DNA of 64,000 nt from an uncultured Bacteroidota bacterium (GTDB taxonomy: Bacteria > Bacteroidota > Bacteroidia > Chitinophagales > Chitinophagaceae). A model generated the notes under the pieces. It did not search any database, was not told the origin of the DNA, and worked only from the letters and a program-made list of their open reading frames with translations. Positions 53,931-62,510 of the stretch are shown here, piece by piece; within the stretch, counting starts at the first letter, position 1; every line of letters begins with the position of its first letter. The stretch is taken from positions 1-64,000 of the forward strand of contig CAIJXT010000009.1 in NCBI GenBank assembly GCA_903824665.1. Direction: 5' to 3'. The position numbers and the translations under genes were made by a program.

Positions 53931-56900
53931 ATGGCTATAACGCAAAAAAAGACCGCAACGGGTAGAATAAATTTCGGCAAGCTACACGACGCTGCCGCGA
54001 CGCCCGACCTGCTGGCTATTCAGCTTCAGTCGTTTCAGGATTTTTTCCAGCTGGAAACAACACCCGACAAACGCAACAATGAAGGCTTGTTCCGGGTGTT
54101 CAAGGAAAACTTCCCGATCACCGATACCCGCAACATTTTCGTACTCGAATTCCTCGACTATTTCATCGATCCGCCACGTTACACCATCGATGAGTGTATG
54201 GAGCGCGGTCTTACGTACTCCGTTCCACTGAAAGCCAAGTTGAAACTGAGCTGTAATGACGAAGAGCACGTTGATTTCGAAACCATAGTACAGGATGTGT
54301 TTCTTGGAAACATTCCATACATGACACCACGCGGCACATTCGTGATCAATGGTGCTGAGCGTGTGGTTGTATCGCAGCTGCACCGTTCACCGGGTGTATT
54401 CTTCGGACAAAGCGTTCACCCCAACGGAACAAAAATCTACAGTGCCCGTGTTATACCTTTCAAAGGCGCTTGGATGGAATTTGCTACTGACATCAACAAT
54501 GTCATGTATGCATACATCGATCGTAAAAAGAAATTCCCCGTTACTACCCTGCTCCGTGCCATCGGGTACGAAACAGACAAGGACATCCTTGACCTGTTCG
54601 ACATGGCAGAGGAAGTAAAAGTGGAAAAAAAGACACTTGCCAACCACATCGGCCGCAAACTGGCAGCACGCGTACTGCGCAGCTGGACAGAAGATTTCGT
54701 TGATGAGGACACCGGTGAAGTTGTAACCATAGAGCGTAACGAAATAGTACTGGACCGCGACAGTATCCTCGACGAGAGCAACGCTGAAATGGTAATGGAA
54801 ATGGGTATTAAAACCGTTTTCCTCCAGAAAGAAGAAGTAAGCGGCGACTATTCAATCATCTACAATACCCTGAATAAGGATACTTCCAACTCAGAGCTGG
54901 AAGCCGTTCAACACATCTACCGCCAGTTGCGCGGTTCTGATGCTCCGGATGATGAAACAGCACGTGGCATCATCGAAAAACTGTTCTTCAGTGATAAGCG
55001 TTATGACCTCGGCGAAGTTGGCCGTTACAAAATTAACCGCAAGTTGGGTCTTGATATCAACCTCACTACCAAAGTACTGAGCAGAGAAGATATCATTTCT
55101 ATCATTAAGTATCTTGTTCGCCTTACCAATGGTAAAGCGGAAATTGATGATATTGATCACTTGAGCAATCGTCGTGTTCGTACCGTTGGCGAGCAGTTGT
55201 TTGCACAGTTCGGTGTTGGTCTTGCCCGTATGGCGCGTACCATCCGTGAACGTATGAACGTACGCGACAATGAGGTGTTCACACCAATAGATCTGATCAA
55301 CGCCCGTACGTTGTCATCTGTTATCAATTCATTCTTCGGAACCTCACAGCTATCACAGTTCCTTGACCAGACCAACCCACTGTCAGAGATCACGCACAAA
55401 AGGCGTATCTCGGCACTCGGACCGGGCGGTCTTAGCCGTGAGCGTGCCGGCTTTGAGGTACGTGACGTACACTACAGCCACTACGGCCGCCTGTGTACCA
55501 TTGAAACTCCTGAAGGTCCAAACATCGGTCTGATATCAACGCTTTGCGTACATGCGCAGATCAATGATATGGGCTTTATCGAAACGCCATACCGCAAGGT
55601 GAAGGACGGCAAAGTAGATCTGAAAAATTTCAGGTTCCTGAGTGCAGAAGAAGAAGATCTTGCCAAAATCGCCCAGGCCAACGTGCCTATGGATGATAAA
55701 GGCAACTTCCTTGAAGACAAAATCAAATCACGTCAGACTGGTGACTTCCCTATCCTCGATCCGGGAGAAGTGGAGTACATGGACGTGGCGCCAAACCAGA
55801 TCGTGGGCCTTAGCGCATCGCTGATCCCCTTCCTGGAGCATGATGACGCCAACCGCGCACTGATGGGTTCAAACATGCAACGTCAGGCTGTGCCACTTAT
55901 CATCCCTCAGGTACCTATCGTGGGTACAGGTCTGGAAGGTAAGGCTGCACGCGACGCCCGTATTCAGATTCATGCTGAAGGTAACGGTGTTGTAGAGTAC
56001 GTTGATGCTGATAACATCCATGTTCGTTACGACCGCGGCGAAAAAGAGCGCCTGGTGTCTTTCGAAGATGATCTGAAAATCTATACACTTACAAAGTATA
56101 AGAAAACCAACCAGAGCACAAGTATGACACTGCGCCCATGTGTGCGTAAAGGTCAGAAAGTGAAAACAGGCGACTTCCTTACAGAAGGTTACGCTACTCA
56201 GGACGGAGAGCTGGCACTGGGTCGTAACCTGAAAGTGGCGTTCATGCCATGGAAAGGCTACAACTTCGAGGATGCGATCGTGATCAATGAAAAAGTAGTT
56301 CGCGAAGACTGGTTCACATCAGTGCACATCGACGAGTATGAACTCGAAGTTCGTGACACTAAACTGGGCGAAGAAGAACTGACACCAGATATCCCCAACG
56401 TTTCTGAAGAGGCTACAAAAGACCTCGACGAAAACGGTATCATCCGCATCGGTGCGCATGTTGGCGAAGGTGACATCCTGATTGGTAAGATCACACCAAA
56501 AGGCGAAACAGATCCTACACCGGAAGAAAAACTGCTCCGTGCGATATTTGGTGATAAAGCCGGTGATGCAAAAGATGCATCGCTGAAGGCACCAAGCGGT
56601 ACTGAAGGTATTGTTATCTCCAAGCAGCTGTTCCAGCGCGCCAAGAAAGACAAGAACTCTAAAGTGCGCGAAAAAGCACAGATAGAAAAGATAGATAAGG
56701 TACACGAAAAGAATCTGGAAGACCTTAAAAACTTCTTGTTCGAGAAATTGCAGATCCTCCTTAAAGACAAGTCATCAGCAGGTATCACCAACAACTTCGG
56801 TGAAACTGTACTGACGAAAGGTGGCAAATTCAATTCAAAAACACTGGGTTCTATCGATTACCAGAACGTAAACCCTCTGGGTTGGACAGGTGACAAGGAA

Positions 56901-57743
56901 ACTGATGACCTGATCAACCAGCTGTTGCACAACTACAACATTAAGTTCAACGAAGAACTGGGTCGCTACAAGCGCGAAAAGTTCAACCTGAGCATTGGTG
57001 ATGAGTTACCTGCAGGCGTGCTGAAACTCGCAAAAGTATACCTCGCCAGCAAGCGTAAGCTGAAAGTGGGTGATAAAATGGCGGGTCGACACGGTAACAA
57101 GGGTATTGTGGCTAAGATCGTGCGTGAAGAAGACATGCCGTTCCTCGAAGATGGCACACCGGTTGATGTGGTGCTGAACCCACTGGGTGTACCTTCCCGT
57201 ATGAACCTCGGTCAGATCTACGAAACAATCCTCGGATGGGCCGGAGAAAAAATGGGTGTGAAATTTGCTACACCGATATTCGATGGTGCCTCTGTAGAAG
57301 AAATCGACGACCTCATCAACAAAGCTGGTCTGCCCGAATTCGGTCACACCTTCCTGTTCGATGGTGAAACCGGAGAGCGCTTCCACCAGAAAGCAACCGT
57401 AGGTATCATCTACATCATCAAACTGCATCACATGGTAGACGATAAGATGCACGCGCGTTCTATCGGACCATACAGTCTTATTACGCAGCAGCCGCTGGGT
57501 GGTAAAGCACAGTTCGGTGGTCAGCGTTTTGGTGAGATGGAAGTTTGGGCACTTGAAGCATATGGTGCATCAAACATCCTGCAGGAGTTGCTCACACTCA
57601 AATCAGATGATATCGTAGGTCGTGCAAAAACTTATGAAGCAATCGTGAAGGGCGACAACATACCAAAAGCCGGTATACCAGAATCCTTCAATGTATTGGT
57701 CAATGAGTTGAGAGGCCTCGGTCTGGAGCTGAAGTTTGAGTAA
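53931..57743 (+). CDS. rpoB: RNA polymerase beta subunit
   Basis: RpoB forms half of the RNA polymerase catalytic cleft. 1270 aa, typical of Bacteroidota. The rifampicin region at about 470-500 ([20 protein letters not shown], then [12 protein letters not shown]) has the sensitive-type Asp, His and Ser at the usual resistance positions. [40 protein letters not shown] and [24 protein letters not shown] are all present. Upstream lie a strong promoter and a terminator-like hairpin; AAAAGGAG 13-20 nt before ATG may act as ribosome-binding site. The rplKAJL genes that usually precede rpoB are not there. A four-helix-bundle gene separates it from rpoC. Confidence 0.98.
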
Positions 57744-57760
57744 GGAGTGGAGTGGTTGGT

Positions 57761-57788
57761 ATATAGTACTTAGTATTTAGCTACTGCC
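57761..57788. repeat. Left half of imperfect inverted repeat around the four-helix-bundle gene
   Basis: TAGTACTTAGTATTTAGCTA followed by CTGCC ends just before the ATG of the four-helix-bundle gene. Its reverse complement (GGCAGTAGCTAAATACTAAG…) aligns with GGCTATCTACTAAAGACTAA… at 58149-58180, sharing GGC, then CTA-A-ACTAA-TACTA. Confidence 0.45.
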
Positions 57789-57789
57789 T

Positions 57790-58140
57790 ATGAATAACTT
57801 TAGGGAACTGATTGTGTGGCAAAAATCAATAAATCTGGTTGTTCAGATTTATGAACTAACACGAAACTTCCCTAAAGACGAACAGTATAATCTGATTACT
57901 CAAATGCAACGTGCTGCGACATCAATACCCAGCAATATTGCAGAAGGGTCGGGAAGAAATACTAGCAGTTCATTTAAACACTATTTGACGATATCGATTG
58001 GCTCAGCACACGAATTGGAAACACAGATAATTATTAGCAAACAATTGGGTTACATAAGAGAAGATAGTTATAATTTGATTATTACAGAGTTGCACGGAAT
58101 TCAGAAAATGCTGTTTTCATTGCACAACAATATGAAATAA
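57790..58140 (+). CDS. Four-helix-bundle protein (S23/TIGR02436-type) between rpoB and rpoC
   Basis: This 116-aa all-helical protein matches the four-helix-bundle family once called 23S rRNA intervening-sequence or S23 protein: FRELIVWQKSINLVVQIYEL, FPKDEQYNLITQMQRAATSIPSNIAEG, and SAHELETQIIISKQLGYI. In other bacteria such genes lie in rRNA intervening sequences and as scattered small inserts, and a structural relative (Avd) works in diversity-generating retroelements. The role here is unknown. It starts 46 nt after the rpoB stop, ends 47 nt before rpoC, and has imperfect inverted repeats at both ends. Codon use is AT-rich compared with rpoB and rpoC, supporting insertion into the operon. 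Confidence 0.88.
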   Translation: MNNFRELIVWQKSINLVVQIYELTRNFPKDEQYNLITQMQRAATSIPSNIAEGSGRNTSSSFKHYLTISIGSAHELETQIIISKQLGYIREDSYNLIITELHGIQKMLFSLHNNMK

Positions 58141-58148
58141 TCATTCGA

Positions 58149-58180
58149 GGCTATCTACTAAAGACTAACTACTAATTACT
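58149..58180. repeat. Right half of imperfect inverted repeat around the four-helix-bundle gene
   Basis: GGCTATCTACTAAAGACTAA, then CTACTAATTACT, lies between the four-helix-bundle gene and rpoC. It is the partner of 57761-57788 (see there). It ends 7 nt before the rpoC ATG and may thereby alter rpoC translation initiation. Confidence 0.45.
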
Positions 58181-58187
58181 TAAGAAA

Positions 58188-61100
58188 ATGGCAATAAAAA
58201 AAGATAACCGTCCAAGGGCGGGATTTGGTAAGATCACTATCAGTCTTGCATCGCCGGATGCGATCCTTGATCGCTCTTATGGTGAGGTACTAAAGCCTGA
58301 AACTATTAACTATCGTACCTACAAGCCTGAGCGTGATGGCCTGTTCTGCGAAAAAATATTCGGACCGGTTAAGGACTACGAATGCTATTGCGGCAAGTAC
58401 AAACGTATTCGCTACAAAGGCATCGTATGCGACCGTTGCGGTGTTGAGGTTACAGAAAAGAAAGTACGCCGTGAGCGTCTGGGCCACATCAAGCTGGTGG
58501 TGCCTATCGTCCATATCTGGTATTTTAAGAGCCTTCCTAATAAGATAGGTTATCTGCTCGGTGTTAGCTCCAAAAAAATGGAGAGCATCGTTTATTACGA
58601 GCGTTATGTAGTTATACAGTCTGGCGAAGCCGAAGAAATGGTGCGCACAAAGCTCAACCTCAAGGAGAGCGAAAACACCCATCAGCAGTTGCTTACTGAA
58701 GATGAGTATCTGGAGATCCTCGATGGTCTTCCAAAAGAAAACCAATACCTGCCAGACGAAGACCCTAACAAGTTCATCGCTAAGATGGGCGCTGAGTCTG
58801 TACAGATGCTGTTGTCACGCATTGATCTCGACAAACTGTCTTACGACCTTCGCAATGCAGCAGCAAACGAAACTTCACAACAGCGTAAGCAGGAAGCCCT
58901 TAAGCGCCTGAGCGTTGTTGAGGCTTTCCGCGATGCCAACACACGTATCGAGAACCGTCTGGAGTGGATGGTGATGCAGTATGTACCGGTTATTCCACCC
59001 GAGTTGCGCCCGTTGGTGCCGTTGGATGGTGGCCGTTTTGCATCGTCCGATCTTAATGATCTTTACCGCAGGGTGATCATCCGTAACAACCGTCTGAAGC
59101 GTCTTATAGAAATCAAAGCACCTGAGGTGATCCTGCGTAATGAAAAACGTATGCTTCAGGAAGCTGTCGATTCTCTGTTCGATAACAGCCGTAAGTCAAA
59201 CGCTGTAAAAGCCGAAGGTGGTCGCGCACTGAAATCTCTTTCTGACGTACTGAAAGGCAAACAAGGTCGTTTCCGTCAAAACCTTCTTGGTAAACGTGTC
59301 GACTACTCTGGTCGTTCGGTTATCGTGGTAGGCCCTGAAATGAAACTGCATGAGTGTGGCCTTCCAAAAGATATGGCTGCCGAACTGTTCAAACCGTTCA
59401 TCATCCGCAAGTTGATTGAAAGGGGCATTGTAAAAACAGTAAAAAGTGCGAAAAAACTGGTAGAGCGCAAAGAGGCTGTGGTTTGGGATATCTTGGAGAA
59501 TGTACTGAAAGGACACCCGATTCTCCTCAACCGTGCCCCTACCCTTCACCGTTTGTCAATTCAGGCCTTCCAGCCAAAGTTGATCGAAGGCAAGGCAATC
59601 CAGCTGCATCCGCTCGTATGTTCCGCGTTCAACGCCGACTTCGATGGTGACCAGATGGCCGTGCACGTTCCGCTCAGCAATGCTTCTATTGTAGAGGCTC
59701 AGCTGCTGATGCTGGCATCGCACAACATTCTTAACCCACAGAATGGCACCCCGATAACACTTCCTTCTCAGGACATGGTACTCGGACTCTACTACATTTC
59801 TAAAGGAAAGAAATCAACAGAAACTGAAAAAGTAAAAGGCGAAAACAAGGTATACTATAGTTCAGAAGAAGTGATCATAGCGCACAACGAAGGTCATGCC
59901 GACCTCCATGCCTGGATCAAGGTTCGTGGAACTGTTCGTGAAGCCGATGGCACACTCGTCGACAAACTTATCGAAACAACCGTTGGACGTGTTATGTTCA
60001 ACCAGTTTGTACCAAAAGAAAATGGCTTTGTAAACGCGCTGCTCACCAAAAAATCACTGCGTGAGATCATCGGCCAGATATTGAAGAACACCAATATCCC
60101 TAAAACCGTAGCTTTCCTTGACGATATCAAAACACTCGGTTTCCGTACGGCATTCCGTGGTGGACTATCGTTCAACATCAAGGATCTTACAGTTCCGGAT
60201 GTTAAAGAACAACTGGTTGCAAATGCTCAGGTTGAAGTTGACGAAATTTGGGACAACTACAACATGGGTCTTATCACCAATAACGAACGTTATAACCAGG
60301 TGATCGACGTTTGGTCACGCGTAGATACGCGTGTAACTGAAACGCTGATTCGTGAAATGGCAGCAGACAAGCAGGGCTTCAACTCTGTGTACATGATGCT
60401 TGACTCCGGTGCGCGTGGATCAAAACAGCAGGTTAAGCAGCTTGCAGGCCTTAGGGGTCTGATGGCAAAACCTCGTCGTAGTGGTTCATCAGGATCTGAG
60501 ATCATTGAAAATCCGATCCTCTCCAACTTCAAAGTAGGTCTGAGTGTATTGGAGTACTTTATCTCTACCCACGGTGCCCGTAAGGGTCTTGCGGATACCG
60601 CCCTTAAAACGGCCGATGCCGGTTACCTCACACGTCGTCTGGTAGACGTTGCTCAGGATGTGGTGATTAATGGTGAAGATTGTGGTACACTTCGTGGTAT
60701 CGCAACCTCCGCACTGAAAGACAATGAGGAAATTGTAGAACCATTGTACGATCGTATACTCGGTCGCACATCGCTTCATAACATCTACGATCCGTTTACC
60801 GACGAGGTTATCTGCTCTGCAGGCGACGAGATCACAGAAGACGTTGCAAAACGTATAGAAGACAGTCCAATCGATACGGTGGAGATTCGTTCTGTACTTA
60901 CCTGCGAACTCAGAAGAGGTGTATGTACCAAGTGTTACGGCAAGAACCTTGCTACCGGTTATATGGCACAGAAAGGTGATGCAGTTGGTATCATCGCTGC
61001 CCAGTCCATCGGTGAGCCGGGTACACAGCTTACACTGCGTACGTTCCACGTTGGTGGTGTTGCGGGTTCTTCTGCTATCGAATCTCAATTGGTTGCCCGC

Positions 61101-62510
61101 TTCGACGGTACTATCCAGTTCGATGGTCTGCGTACTACTAAGTTTAAAGACATCGAAGGTGAAGATCAGATCGTGGTAATAGGCCGTACCGGAGAGGTAA
61201 GGATTGTGGATGTAGCCAATGACCGCCTGCTGATCACCAACAACATCCCTTATGGCTCTGTCCTTAAAATTGCAAATGGTAAAAAAGTTGCAAAGGGCGA
61301 TGTGATCTGCACATGGGATCCGTTTAACGCTGTGATCATATCAGAAATCAGCGGAAAAGTGAAGTTCGATAGCGTAATCGAAGGTGTTACCTACCGCGAA
61401 GAGGCCGACGAACAAACTGGTCACCGCGAGAAGGTGGTAATTGAAACTAAAGATAAAACCAAGATACCATCAGTATTGGTAGAAGGTAAAGAACATAAAA
61501 TGTACAACTTGCCTGTAGGTTCTCACATCATCGTAGAGCCAGAGCAGGAAGTACATAACGGACAGGTACTGGTGAAAATACCACGTATCATGGGTCGTAG
61601 CAGGGATATCACCGGTGGTCTGCCACGTGTTACAGAACTGTTTGAAGCACGTAACCCAAGCAACCCTGCAGTAGTAGCCGAAATCGACGGTGTGGTAGGA
61701 TTTGGTAACGTGAAGCGTGGTAACAGAGAGATCATCGTTGAATCACGTGAGGGCATGGTTAAAAAATACCTTGTACCGCTTACACGCCACATCATGGTGC
61801 AGGACGGTGACTTCGTAAAAGCAGGCACAGCGCTTTCTGATGGTGCCACAACGCCTAGCGATATCCTGTCTATCAAAGGACCTTTCGCAGTTCAGGAGTA
61901 CCTTGTAAATGAAATTCAGGAGGTATATCGCCTGCAGGGTGTGAAGATCAATGACAAGCACATTGAGGTGATCGTTCGCCAGATGATGCGTAAAGTAAAT
62001 ATCGTTGATCCGGGTGATACCAAGTTCCTTGAAGAAGATACAGTAGATAAGTTCGAGTTTATGGACGAGAACGACTGGATCTATGACAAGAAGGTAGTTA
62101 TGGATGCTGGCAACTCAGACAAGCTGCACCCTGGCCAGATCGTTACAATTCGCGAACTGAGGGAAGAAAACAGCGGTCTGCGTCGTGCCGATAAGAAACT
62201 GGTTGAATACCGCGATGCTAATCCTGCTACTTCCTCTCCTATGCTTCTGGGTATTACCAAGGCATCGTTGGGTACGCAGAGCTGGATATCAGCGGCATCG
62301 TTCCAGGAAACAACAAAAGTACTGTCTCAGGCAGCCATCAATGGTAAAGCCGATTCACTGATGGGTCTGAAAGAAAACGTTATTACCGGCAATCTGATAC
62401 CTGCTGGTACCGGTATGCGCGAATTCGATGATCTGGTAGTAGGATCTAAAGAAGAGTTCGAATTGCTGATGGCAAATCGCGATGTACTGCAGTTCGACGA
62501 TGAAGAATAA
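58188..62510 (+). CDS. rpoC: RNA polymerase beta' subunit
   Basis: RpoC provides the catalytic Mg2+ site of RNA polymerase. 1440 aa. The N-terminal zinc ribbon has C66, C68, C81 and C84 ([21 protein letters not shown]). NADFDGDQ at 482-489 holds the three Mg-binding aspartates. [23 protein letters not shown] and the bridge helix follow. The second zinc site has [13 protein letters not shown] near 905-920. Together with rpoB it would form one transcription unit, but the S23 gene intervenes. Followed by a symmetrical hairpin. Confidence 0.98.

Follow-up and report, generated by a model that had tools for sequence, protein, structure and literature searches.

The rpoB-rpoC spacer

The window analysed here is a 64,000-nt stretch (contig CAIJXT010000009.1) of an uncultured Chitinophagaceae genome. 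We refer to that genome as G000; other G numbers denote genomes of relatives and L numbers denote loci. On the forward strand, rpoB (53931–57743, 1270 aa) and rpoC (58188–62510, 1440 aa) of the ORF list are separated by a 444-nt gap that holds a single ORF, a codirectional 116-aa gene at 57790–58140. The rpoB stop (57743) lies 46 nt upstream of it and the rpoC start (58188) 47 nt downstream. The protein belongs to PF05635, 23S_rRNA_IVP (E = 1.2e-39, 135.2 bits, cut-off 33.8), and to TIGR02436 (3e-36, 124 bits, cut-off 24), and we call it IVP below. AlphaFold2 modelled the monomer as a four-helix bundle (helices 3–24, 29–55, 59–85 and 91–113; mean pLDDT 94.4). Foldseek matched XCC0516 (2gsc, TM 0.90) and BT_0352 (2rld). 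The Avd structures 8ub7 and 4dwl matched the fold at TM 0.75–0.82 (E 0.04–0.24), but the score against the Avd model NF033474 was 25.6 bits, below the cut-off of 80. The gene has a GC content of 0.345 versus 0.481 in rpoB and 0.474 in rpoC, and a GC3 of 0.36 versus 0.52 and 0.48. The preliminary description of an AT-rich, S23-type four-helix gene of 116 aa between rpoB and rpoC was therefore accurate. Rfam returned nothing at E ≤ 1 in 57500–58500, and the gene does not lie within 23S rRNA here.

The imperfect inverted repeats that had been noted at the edges of the gene are real: 57751–57781 and 58150–58180 are complementary at 71% over 31 nt, with a 16-nt core at 88%. The earlier reading had not noticed that both flanks are arrays with a 7-nt period, each kept in one phase. 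The left arm (57751–57781, forward strand) takes five 7-nt steps, with AG in phase at 57751, 57765, 57772 and 57779 and GG at 57758. The right arm (58151–58184, forward strand) is an imperfect reverse complement of the left, with CT in phase at 58151, 58158, 58165, 58172 and 58179. In 20000 shuffles per flank the period was significant on the left (p = 0.0019) and on the right (p = 5e-5), and no shuffle of 20000 equalled both jointly. By alignment, the ORF thus sits between complementary arms as in an rRNA intervening sequence (IVS). RNA folding gave 8.5–31 expected arm-arm pairs per cassette (11 cassettes from the genus), more than all 20 arm-shuffled versions in 5/11. In G000 the value was 28.2 against a shuffle mean of 13.5 and maximum of 33.1, and the folding test alone was not significant for this cassette. 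These folding results make a stem that loops out the gene plausible.

Heptad arrays elsewhere in the genome

Flanking repeats shared with no other copy would, by the earlier reading, have argued against a mobile cassette; the repeat type was instead found in many other places of G000. The right-arm motif ACTNNNT had 130 overlapping matches at ≤2 mismatches, versus 0 for the reversed pattern. Among the matches listed there were 21 arrays of 7–36 heptads in 18 regions, mostly alone in spacers, and neither of the two IVP genes of G000 lay in any of those regions. Three inverted array pairs with about 70–150 nt between them and no gene occurred at L097 (2877–3125), L100 (2588–2860) and L101 (2753–3016). 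They resemble the emptied gap of G022 described below and are mini-cassettes without a gene. Across the genus, the ACT pattern at ≤1 mismatch had matches in 31/35 genomes. The reversed control at the same threshold had matches in three (G002 with 7, G027 with 1, G033 with 1), and G002, with 7 control matches versus 5, was therefore not above control. A rank test linking the cassette to more ACT arrays gave p = 0.019, but at most three informative independent pairs were left after accounting for phylogeny, and we do not claim this association.

Distribution among relatives

The rpoB-rpoC gap was readable in 27 of the 35 same-genus genomes, G000 included, and had no readable form in the other 8. 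An intact cassette was present in 12 of these gaps (G000, G009, G010, G015, G017, G019, G024–G028, and G033, where it is split over two contig ends). One cassette (G018) was broken by stops, four gaps held what we judged by eye to be remnants (G011 and G016, with arms alone in G022 and G029), and ten had no trace. The cassette was also absent from all four gaps read in other genera (G035, G036, G037 and G049, among 22 genomes with an rpoC match), and by coordinates no IVP match adjoined rpoC in 25 other-genus genomes. Presence throughout the family, which would have argued against a mobile cassette, was not found, since G035 and G036 are family members from other genera.

All 13 genus matches of at least 55% identity, including the broken G018 copy, were located at rpoB-rpoC, and searching the 35 genus genomes, some of which are incomplete, gave no second copy of this lineage. 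The search for further copies in G000 gave only a weak, divergent IVP gene (G000:C26:68774-69106; L002, L110) with 26% identity. This gene has no heptad arms and instead has direct repeats, CTCCGCTCCCTTTCCCGCT, at its flanks.

Gaps without a cassette often contained other palindromes, such as GTAGAGACGCAATGCATTGCGTCTCTAC or relatives of it (L042 in G004, L047 in G008, L046 in G030 and L053 in G031). The rpoB-rpoC gap may attract palindromic repeats.

Exchange and selection

The IVP gene tree resolved three cassette types, A, B, and C, that conflicted with the phylogeny of the flanking genes. On the rpoB+rpoC tree (8133 columns), G028 (type A) grouped with G019 and G026 (type C) at 100/99, and G000 (type A) grouped with G017 (type B) and two empty genomes, also at 100/99. 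With clades chosen after the trees were known, AU tests rejected the groupings G028+G019+G026 and G000+G017 when forced on the IVP alignment (p = 1e-6 and 4e-6), and rejected types A, B, and C when forced as clades on the rpoBC alignment (p = 9e-48, 2e-4 and 5e-4). This conflict indicates that cassettes have been exchanged between species at rpoB-rpoC. At least 5 type changes were needed among intact cassettes, and 13 when empties and remnants, whose type labels were judged by eye, were included (G029 left out). Among 11 cassettes (G033 left out), the mean inverted arm score was 18.9 within a cassette, 17.9 between species of the same type, and 12.7 between types. The arms travel with the cassette type.

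Exchange appears to replace the spacer as a whole. By eye, G012 and G020 have similar empty spacers, and on the tree they bracket G015 at 100/100; G015 carries a type A cassette and, compared with those two, has no trace of the native spacer. The whole spacer was thus replaced, and no target duplication can be read. There was no clear co-conversion tract in rpoB or rpoC, where third positions agreed at ~0.5–0.75 between most pairs. In permutation tests of co-conversion with cassette type, two stretches at the end of rpoB had p = 0.064 and 0.051, and the rpoC start had p = 0.664 and 0.627. We infer that the exchange route is recombination in the conserved gene ends. In a separate observation, the sisters G004 and G020 agreed at 0.91 in rpoC, but agreement fell to 0.73 and 0.71 over the two opening 45-nt blocks of that gene (L121), so that the first 90 nt of the G004 rpoC look as if swapped locally together with the spacer.

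For the IVP gene, dN/dS was 0.06–0.14 in 8/9 pairs, with dS >1 in five of the eight and near saturation in several; dS of the ninth was undefined. Substitution patterns thus indicate that the gene is under purifying selection. The earlier suggestion of a small mobile cassette holds in part. A gene with matched inverted arms is absent from many gaps, has been exchanged between species, and has similar counterparts in other operons (see below). The parts that are not supported are a young insertion or a copy hopping around the genome, given that all 13 genus matches are at one site and the gene is under purifying selection. We rejected young transposition into the gap on the basis of the single locus, the selection, the three cassette types, and the decayed remnants in relatives.

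IVP loci in other Bacteroidota

PF05635 genes were found in 100/119 genomes sampled from the order (E ≤ 1e-15). We parsed two sets of Bacteroidota loci, both consisting of best-scoring matches rather than a random sample: a first set of 78/82 loci, with usable flanks in 73 (5 dropped), and a second set of 72/76 loci from named genomes. Four loci in each had no readable IVP ORF. The sets share at least three loci (L248=L150, L285=L154, L301=L017) and many orthologous sites. IVP was codirectional with both neighbours in 65 of the 73 first-set loci that have two neighbours (both opposite in 4, mixed in 4) and 67/71 of the second, while codirectional triplets made up 17/41 of the control gene triplets in the window.

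The 7-nt period recurred in both sets. Mean autocorrelation z in the first set was 3.19 at lag 7 and 1.85 at lag 14, with other lags from 2 to 15 within 0.75 of zero. In the second set, the values were 3.93 and 2.86, with other lags within 0.5. In the second set, 48/72 loci had z >3 at lag 7, compared with 8/52 control genes of the same loci (control mean z 0.86). Inverted pairing of the flanks recurred as well. Over the 73 loci the median inverted score was 15, versus 9 for direct, reversed, and cross-locus pairs; 44/73 were significant at shuffle p ≤ 0.01 and 21/73 exceeded the 99th percentile of cross-locus pairs. Inverted pairing in the second set was significant in 50/72 loci (p ≤ 0.01, 120-nt flanks) versus 5/52 controls (p ≤ 1/61, 90-nt flanks).

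The step common to the loci was AG on the left and CT on the right, while the rest of the motif varied by locus. Left-arm chains of at least three AG at lag 7 occurred in 39/73 and 40/72 loci, versus at most 8/73 and 4/72 at any other lag from 4 to 11. The strict test for both arms was passed by 27/73 and 35/72 IVP loci, 0/43 other genes of the window, and 4/68 other genes at the named loci. Many IVP loci therefore miss it, which weakens the link of the gene to the arms. Among ORFs of at least 60 aa, scanned in loci that were chosen for their IVP genes (L001–L014 and L032–L091 left out), both-arm flanks were found around 93 IVP-like instances, some genes being counted in several loci, and around only 2 others. 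These two, cas4 (L218) and a thiolase (L232), each adjoin the IVP gene of their locus. In-phase AG counts were broadly distributed, with many loci at 1–3 and a second peak at 5 (12/73 and 13/72), so five steps are not a rule.

Of 149 IVP genes, 147 had a downstream gene, and these fell into 60 sites, the two largest holding 30 and 22; six loci were left out of this count, and among them L017 alone has a stand-in (L301). On the FastTree phylogeny of IVP, the site changed 71 times, against a minimum of 59 and an average of 110 in 30 shuffles, which indicates that lineages mostly keep a site but do move. Named sites included atpF-IVP-atpH in the ATP synthase operon (L145, G066) and paaB-IVP-paaC (L029). 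Further sites were next to an enoyl-CoA hydratase-domain protein and a thiolase (L149) and next to an acyl-CoA dehydrogenase (L155). L146 (G078) clustered with L145 by its downstream gene, and its upstream side ends at the contig end.

Cyanobacterial plasmids and a 23S rRNA gene

A tblastn search with one IVP query matched 30 plasmid records, mostly cyanobacterial; phage records gave no match to one IVP query. We examined 20 of the 30, of which 18 were cyanobacterial. The IVP gene was codirectional with both neighbours in 13 of these 18, antisense to both in four (L215, L217, L220 and L312), and mixed in one. In two batches that include the near-identical loci L306 and L307, left-arm chains of at least three AG were present in 6/9 and 6/9 loci and right-arm CT chains in 6/9 and 3/9. 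Inverted pairing was significant at p ≤ 0.01 in 10/18 loci (L311 at 0.010). Clear heptads were GGGAGTA (L215), GGGTGTA (L216), and GGGAACA (L219). The exceptions were a period of 8 in L222, L311, and L312, direct heptads in L218, and no heptads in L217. Locus L224 likewise had direct arms and a period of 8. AG stays to the left of the gene even at L215, where both neighbours run in the opposite direction, so the polarity there belongs to the cassette.

Three of the plasmid cassettes were located in CRISPR-Cas operons (L218, L221 and L222), as cas6-IVP-cas4 twice and cas10-IVP-cmr3 once. The 23S rRNA IVP is named in a figure legend on CRISPR-linked proteins (PMC10910872).

Locus L314, from Azospirillum lipoferum, aligned with 23S rRNA from end to end (Rfam LSU, 1715 bits). 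Its arms had an inverted score of 26 (p = 0.003) and z of 2.8 at lag 7. By eye, four successive 7-nt steps carry GAC in the left arm and GTC in the right, while AG chains reached only 2. In the Coxiella IVS, tandem heptamers GACAGAT precede the S23 start in the published sequence description (PMC4990558). With one locus here and one published, a small sample, the classical IVS and the operon cassette appear to share a plan.

Interpretation

What is established for this insert is its gene family and fold, its inverted arms with a 7-nt period, its placement between codirectional genes, the selection, and the tree conflict, and we consider it reasonably probable that it is the operon-borne counterpart, in mRNA, of the 23S rRNA IVS: an IVP gene held between complementary period-7 arrays. 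The cassette fills the spacer from just behind the rpoB stop to just short of the rpoC start. No reading frame is therefore interrupted, and the rpoBC transcript could carry the cassette without a dedicated promoter. If co-transcribed with rpoBC, the arms could pair in the RNA and the gene could be looped out as in an rRNA IVS, possibly followed by processing in the cell. The IVP protein, whose solved relatives form rings of five chains and which has the fold of Avd, a retroelement protein, probably binds the arrays, perhaps taking one AG or CT step per subunit. The five steps per arm here and the five chains of the solved relatives invite a model in which the ring would read one step per subunit. 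The cassette may persist because the gene is kept under selection and because cassettes of relatives occasionally replace the whole spacer, with homologous recombination as the likely route of exchange. Several observations weigh against this reading: in G000 the arrays outnumber the gene, many IVP loci fail the strict two-arm test, only 21/73 inverted scores pass the cross-locus percentile, control genes carry some lag-7 signal, some arms are direct or have a period of 8, arm folding beats all shuffles in 5/11 cassettes but not in G000, co-conversion of the gene ends is not clear, and the Xanthomonas GGGAATC unit has no AG step.

The same arrays could arise without any role for the gene. Under this alternative they are the product of generic polymerase slippage, kept alike by hairpin template switching, and the IVP gene has nothing to do with them, being a small gene able to tolerate spacers of this kind. 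Solo arrays are abundant in G000 and the ACT pattern is present in 31/35 genus genomes, which agrees with slippage, as do the citation of 7 nt as a polymerase contact length (PMC4679880, PMC4692102) and the description of about 70 inverted heptad pairs in Xanthomonas without such a gene (PMC4692102). Against slippage stand the both-arm flanks around 93 IVP-like instances versus 2 others, a count from loci chosen for their IVP genes, and around 0/43 and 4/68 controls, together with the recurrence of the association of gene and arms across Bacteroidota, Cyanobacteriota, and the rRNA gene of an alphaproteobacterium. We regard slippage as unlikely.

A classical non-autonomous DNA transposon, in which a transposase acting in trans would mobilize the arms as terminal repeats, would account for the inverted arms, the geneless arm pairs in G000 (L097, L100 and L101) and G022, and the spread of the 147 IVP genes that have a downstream neighbour over 60 sites. 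We nevertheless find it improbable, because each genus genome that has this lineage holds one copy, always at rpoB-rpoC, rather than several; the arms, instead of being fixed ends, are degenerate arrays of heptads with a motif that varies from locus to locus; and the spacer is replaced whole with no readable target duplication. Equally hard to credit is a domesticated operon regulator in which IVP, together with the paired arms, sets the ratio of rpoC to rpoB translation to the host's benefit by TRAP-like autoregulation: the low dN/dS in 8 pairs (dS near saturation in several), the spacers ending at the rpoB stop and rpoC start, and the strong bias toward codirectional neighbours would suit it, but the cassette is absent, broken, or decayed in 15/27 same-genus gaps, the named host operons have no evident common feature, and exchange between species is more like a selfish element.

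Returning to the reading of the insert as an mRNA counterpart of the IVS, a broader version of it is tentative at best. The rRNA IVS, the cyanobacterial heptanucleotide repeats, the TAACTGA arrays, and the operon inserts might be one class of element, built by or for an Avd-fold ring protein that reads a step every 7 nt. IVP would then be the reader of such arrays, or even, with a polymerase as partner, their maker, and would act in trans on the solo arrays scattered over the genome.

The association joins S23/IVP genes, familiar from split 23S rRNA, to the heptamer arrays of cyanobacteria and others, which had no maker, and gives each a partner and a direct biochemical test. It suggests that essential operons such as rpoBC and atpFH can carry a passenger gene between their own genes, and that the same package of gene plus repeats, present in many bacterial operons and in ribosomal RNA, is one widespread and overlooked kind of passenger element.

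Comparison with known systems

TRAP is a ring-shaped protein that recognizes regularly spaced (U/G)AG repeats in RNA. It has 11 subunits, a fold unrelated to IVP, and 2–3 nt between triplets, and the likeness is one of analogy only, a ring with regularly spaced repeats. XCC0516 (2gsc) and BT_0352 (2rld) are similar to the cassette protein at TM 0.82–0.90 and crystallized with five chains each. To our knowledge, neither has a known function. The Xanthomonas protein has been described as a homopentamer (PMC4990558). Avd resembles IVP in fold (8ub7, 4dwl) and in weak family scores, a likeness of PF05635 already in print (PMC10053308), but the cassette's neighbours are rpoB and rpoC rather than a reverse transcriptase, and its score is below the Avd cut-off.

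The TAACTGA arrays are 7-nt tandem repeats in Beggiatoaceae, Cyanobacteria, and Bacteroidetes (MacGregor 2015, PMC4679880). In one genome they were mostly located no more than several nt upstream of start codons and were described without a mechanism, although a repeat-binding protein that could itself be a mobile element was proposed. They share the 7-nt tandem period and in-phase CT with the arms described here, but consist of one fixed heptamer, whereas the cassette motif varies and brackets a gene; the terms S23 and four-helix do not appear in that paper.

Xanthomonas campestris has 186 GGGAATC arrays, with about 70 convergent (inverted) pairs, mostly between codirectional genes near the end of the upstream ORF. 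These arrays and the GGGGA(T/C)T arrays of Nostoc were interpreted as G-quadruplex repeats (PMC4692102). They resemble the cassette arms as dispersed 7-nt arrays, in Xanthomonas also as inverted pairs, but the GGGAATC unit is without the AG step. XCC0516, S23, and four-helix are absent as terms from that paper. The Xanthomonas campestris with the published inverted GGGAATC pairs also encodes the solved IVP protein XCC0516.

Apart from the Coxiella IVS, we found no published link of operon IVP genes to heptamer arrays in the open-access literature, as far as its accessible text goes. The 23S rRNA IVS has the same protein family, complementary arms, and left-arm tandem heptamers (Azospirillum L314; Coxiella, PMC4990558), and a similar size, with 428 nt reported in Coxiella versus the 444-nt gap here. 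It differs in lying within the 23S rRNA gene rather than in the rpoB-rpoC spacer, and the Coxiella ORF is described in that source as being in reductive evolution, whereas the cassette ORF is maintained by purifying selection.
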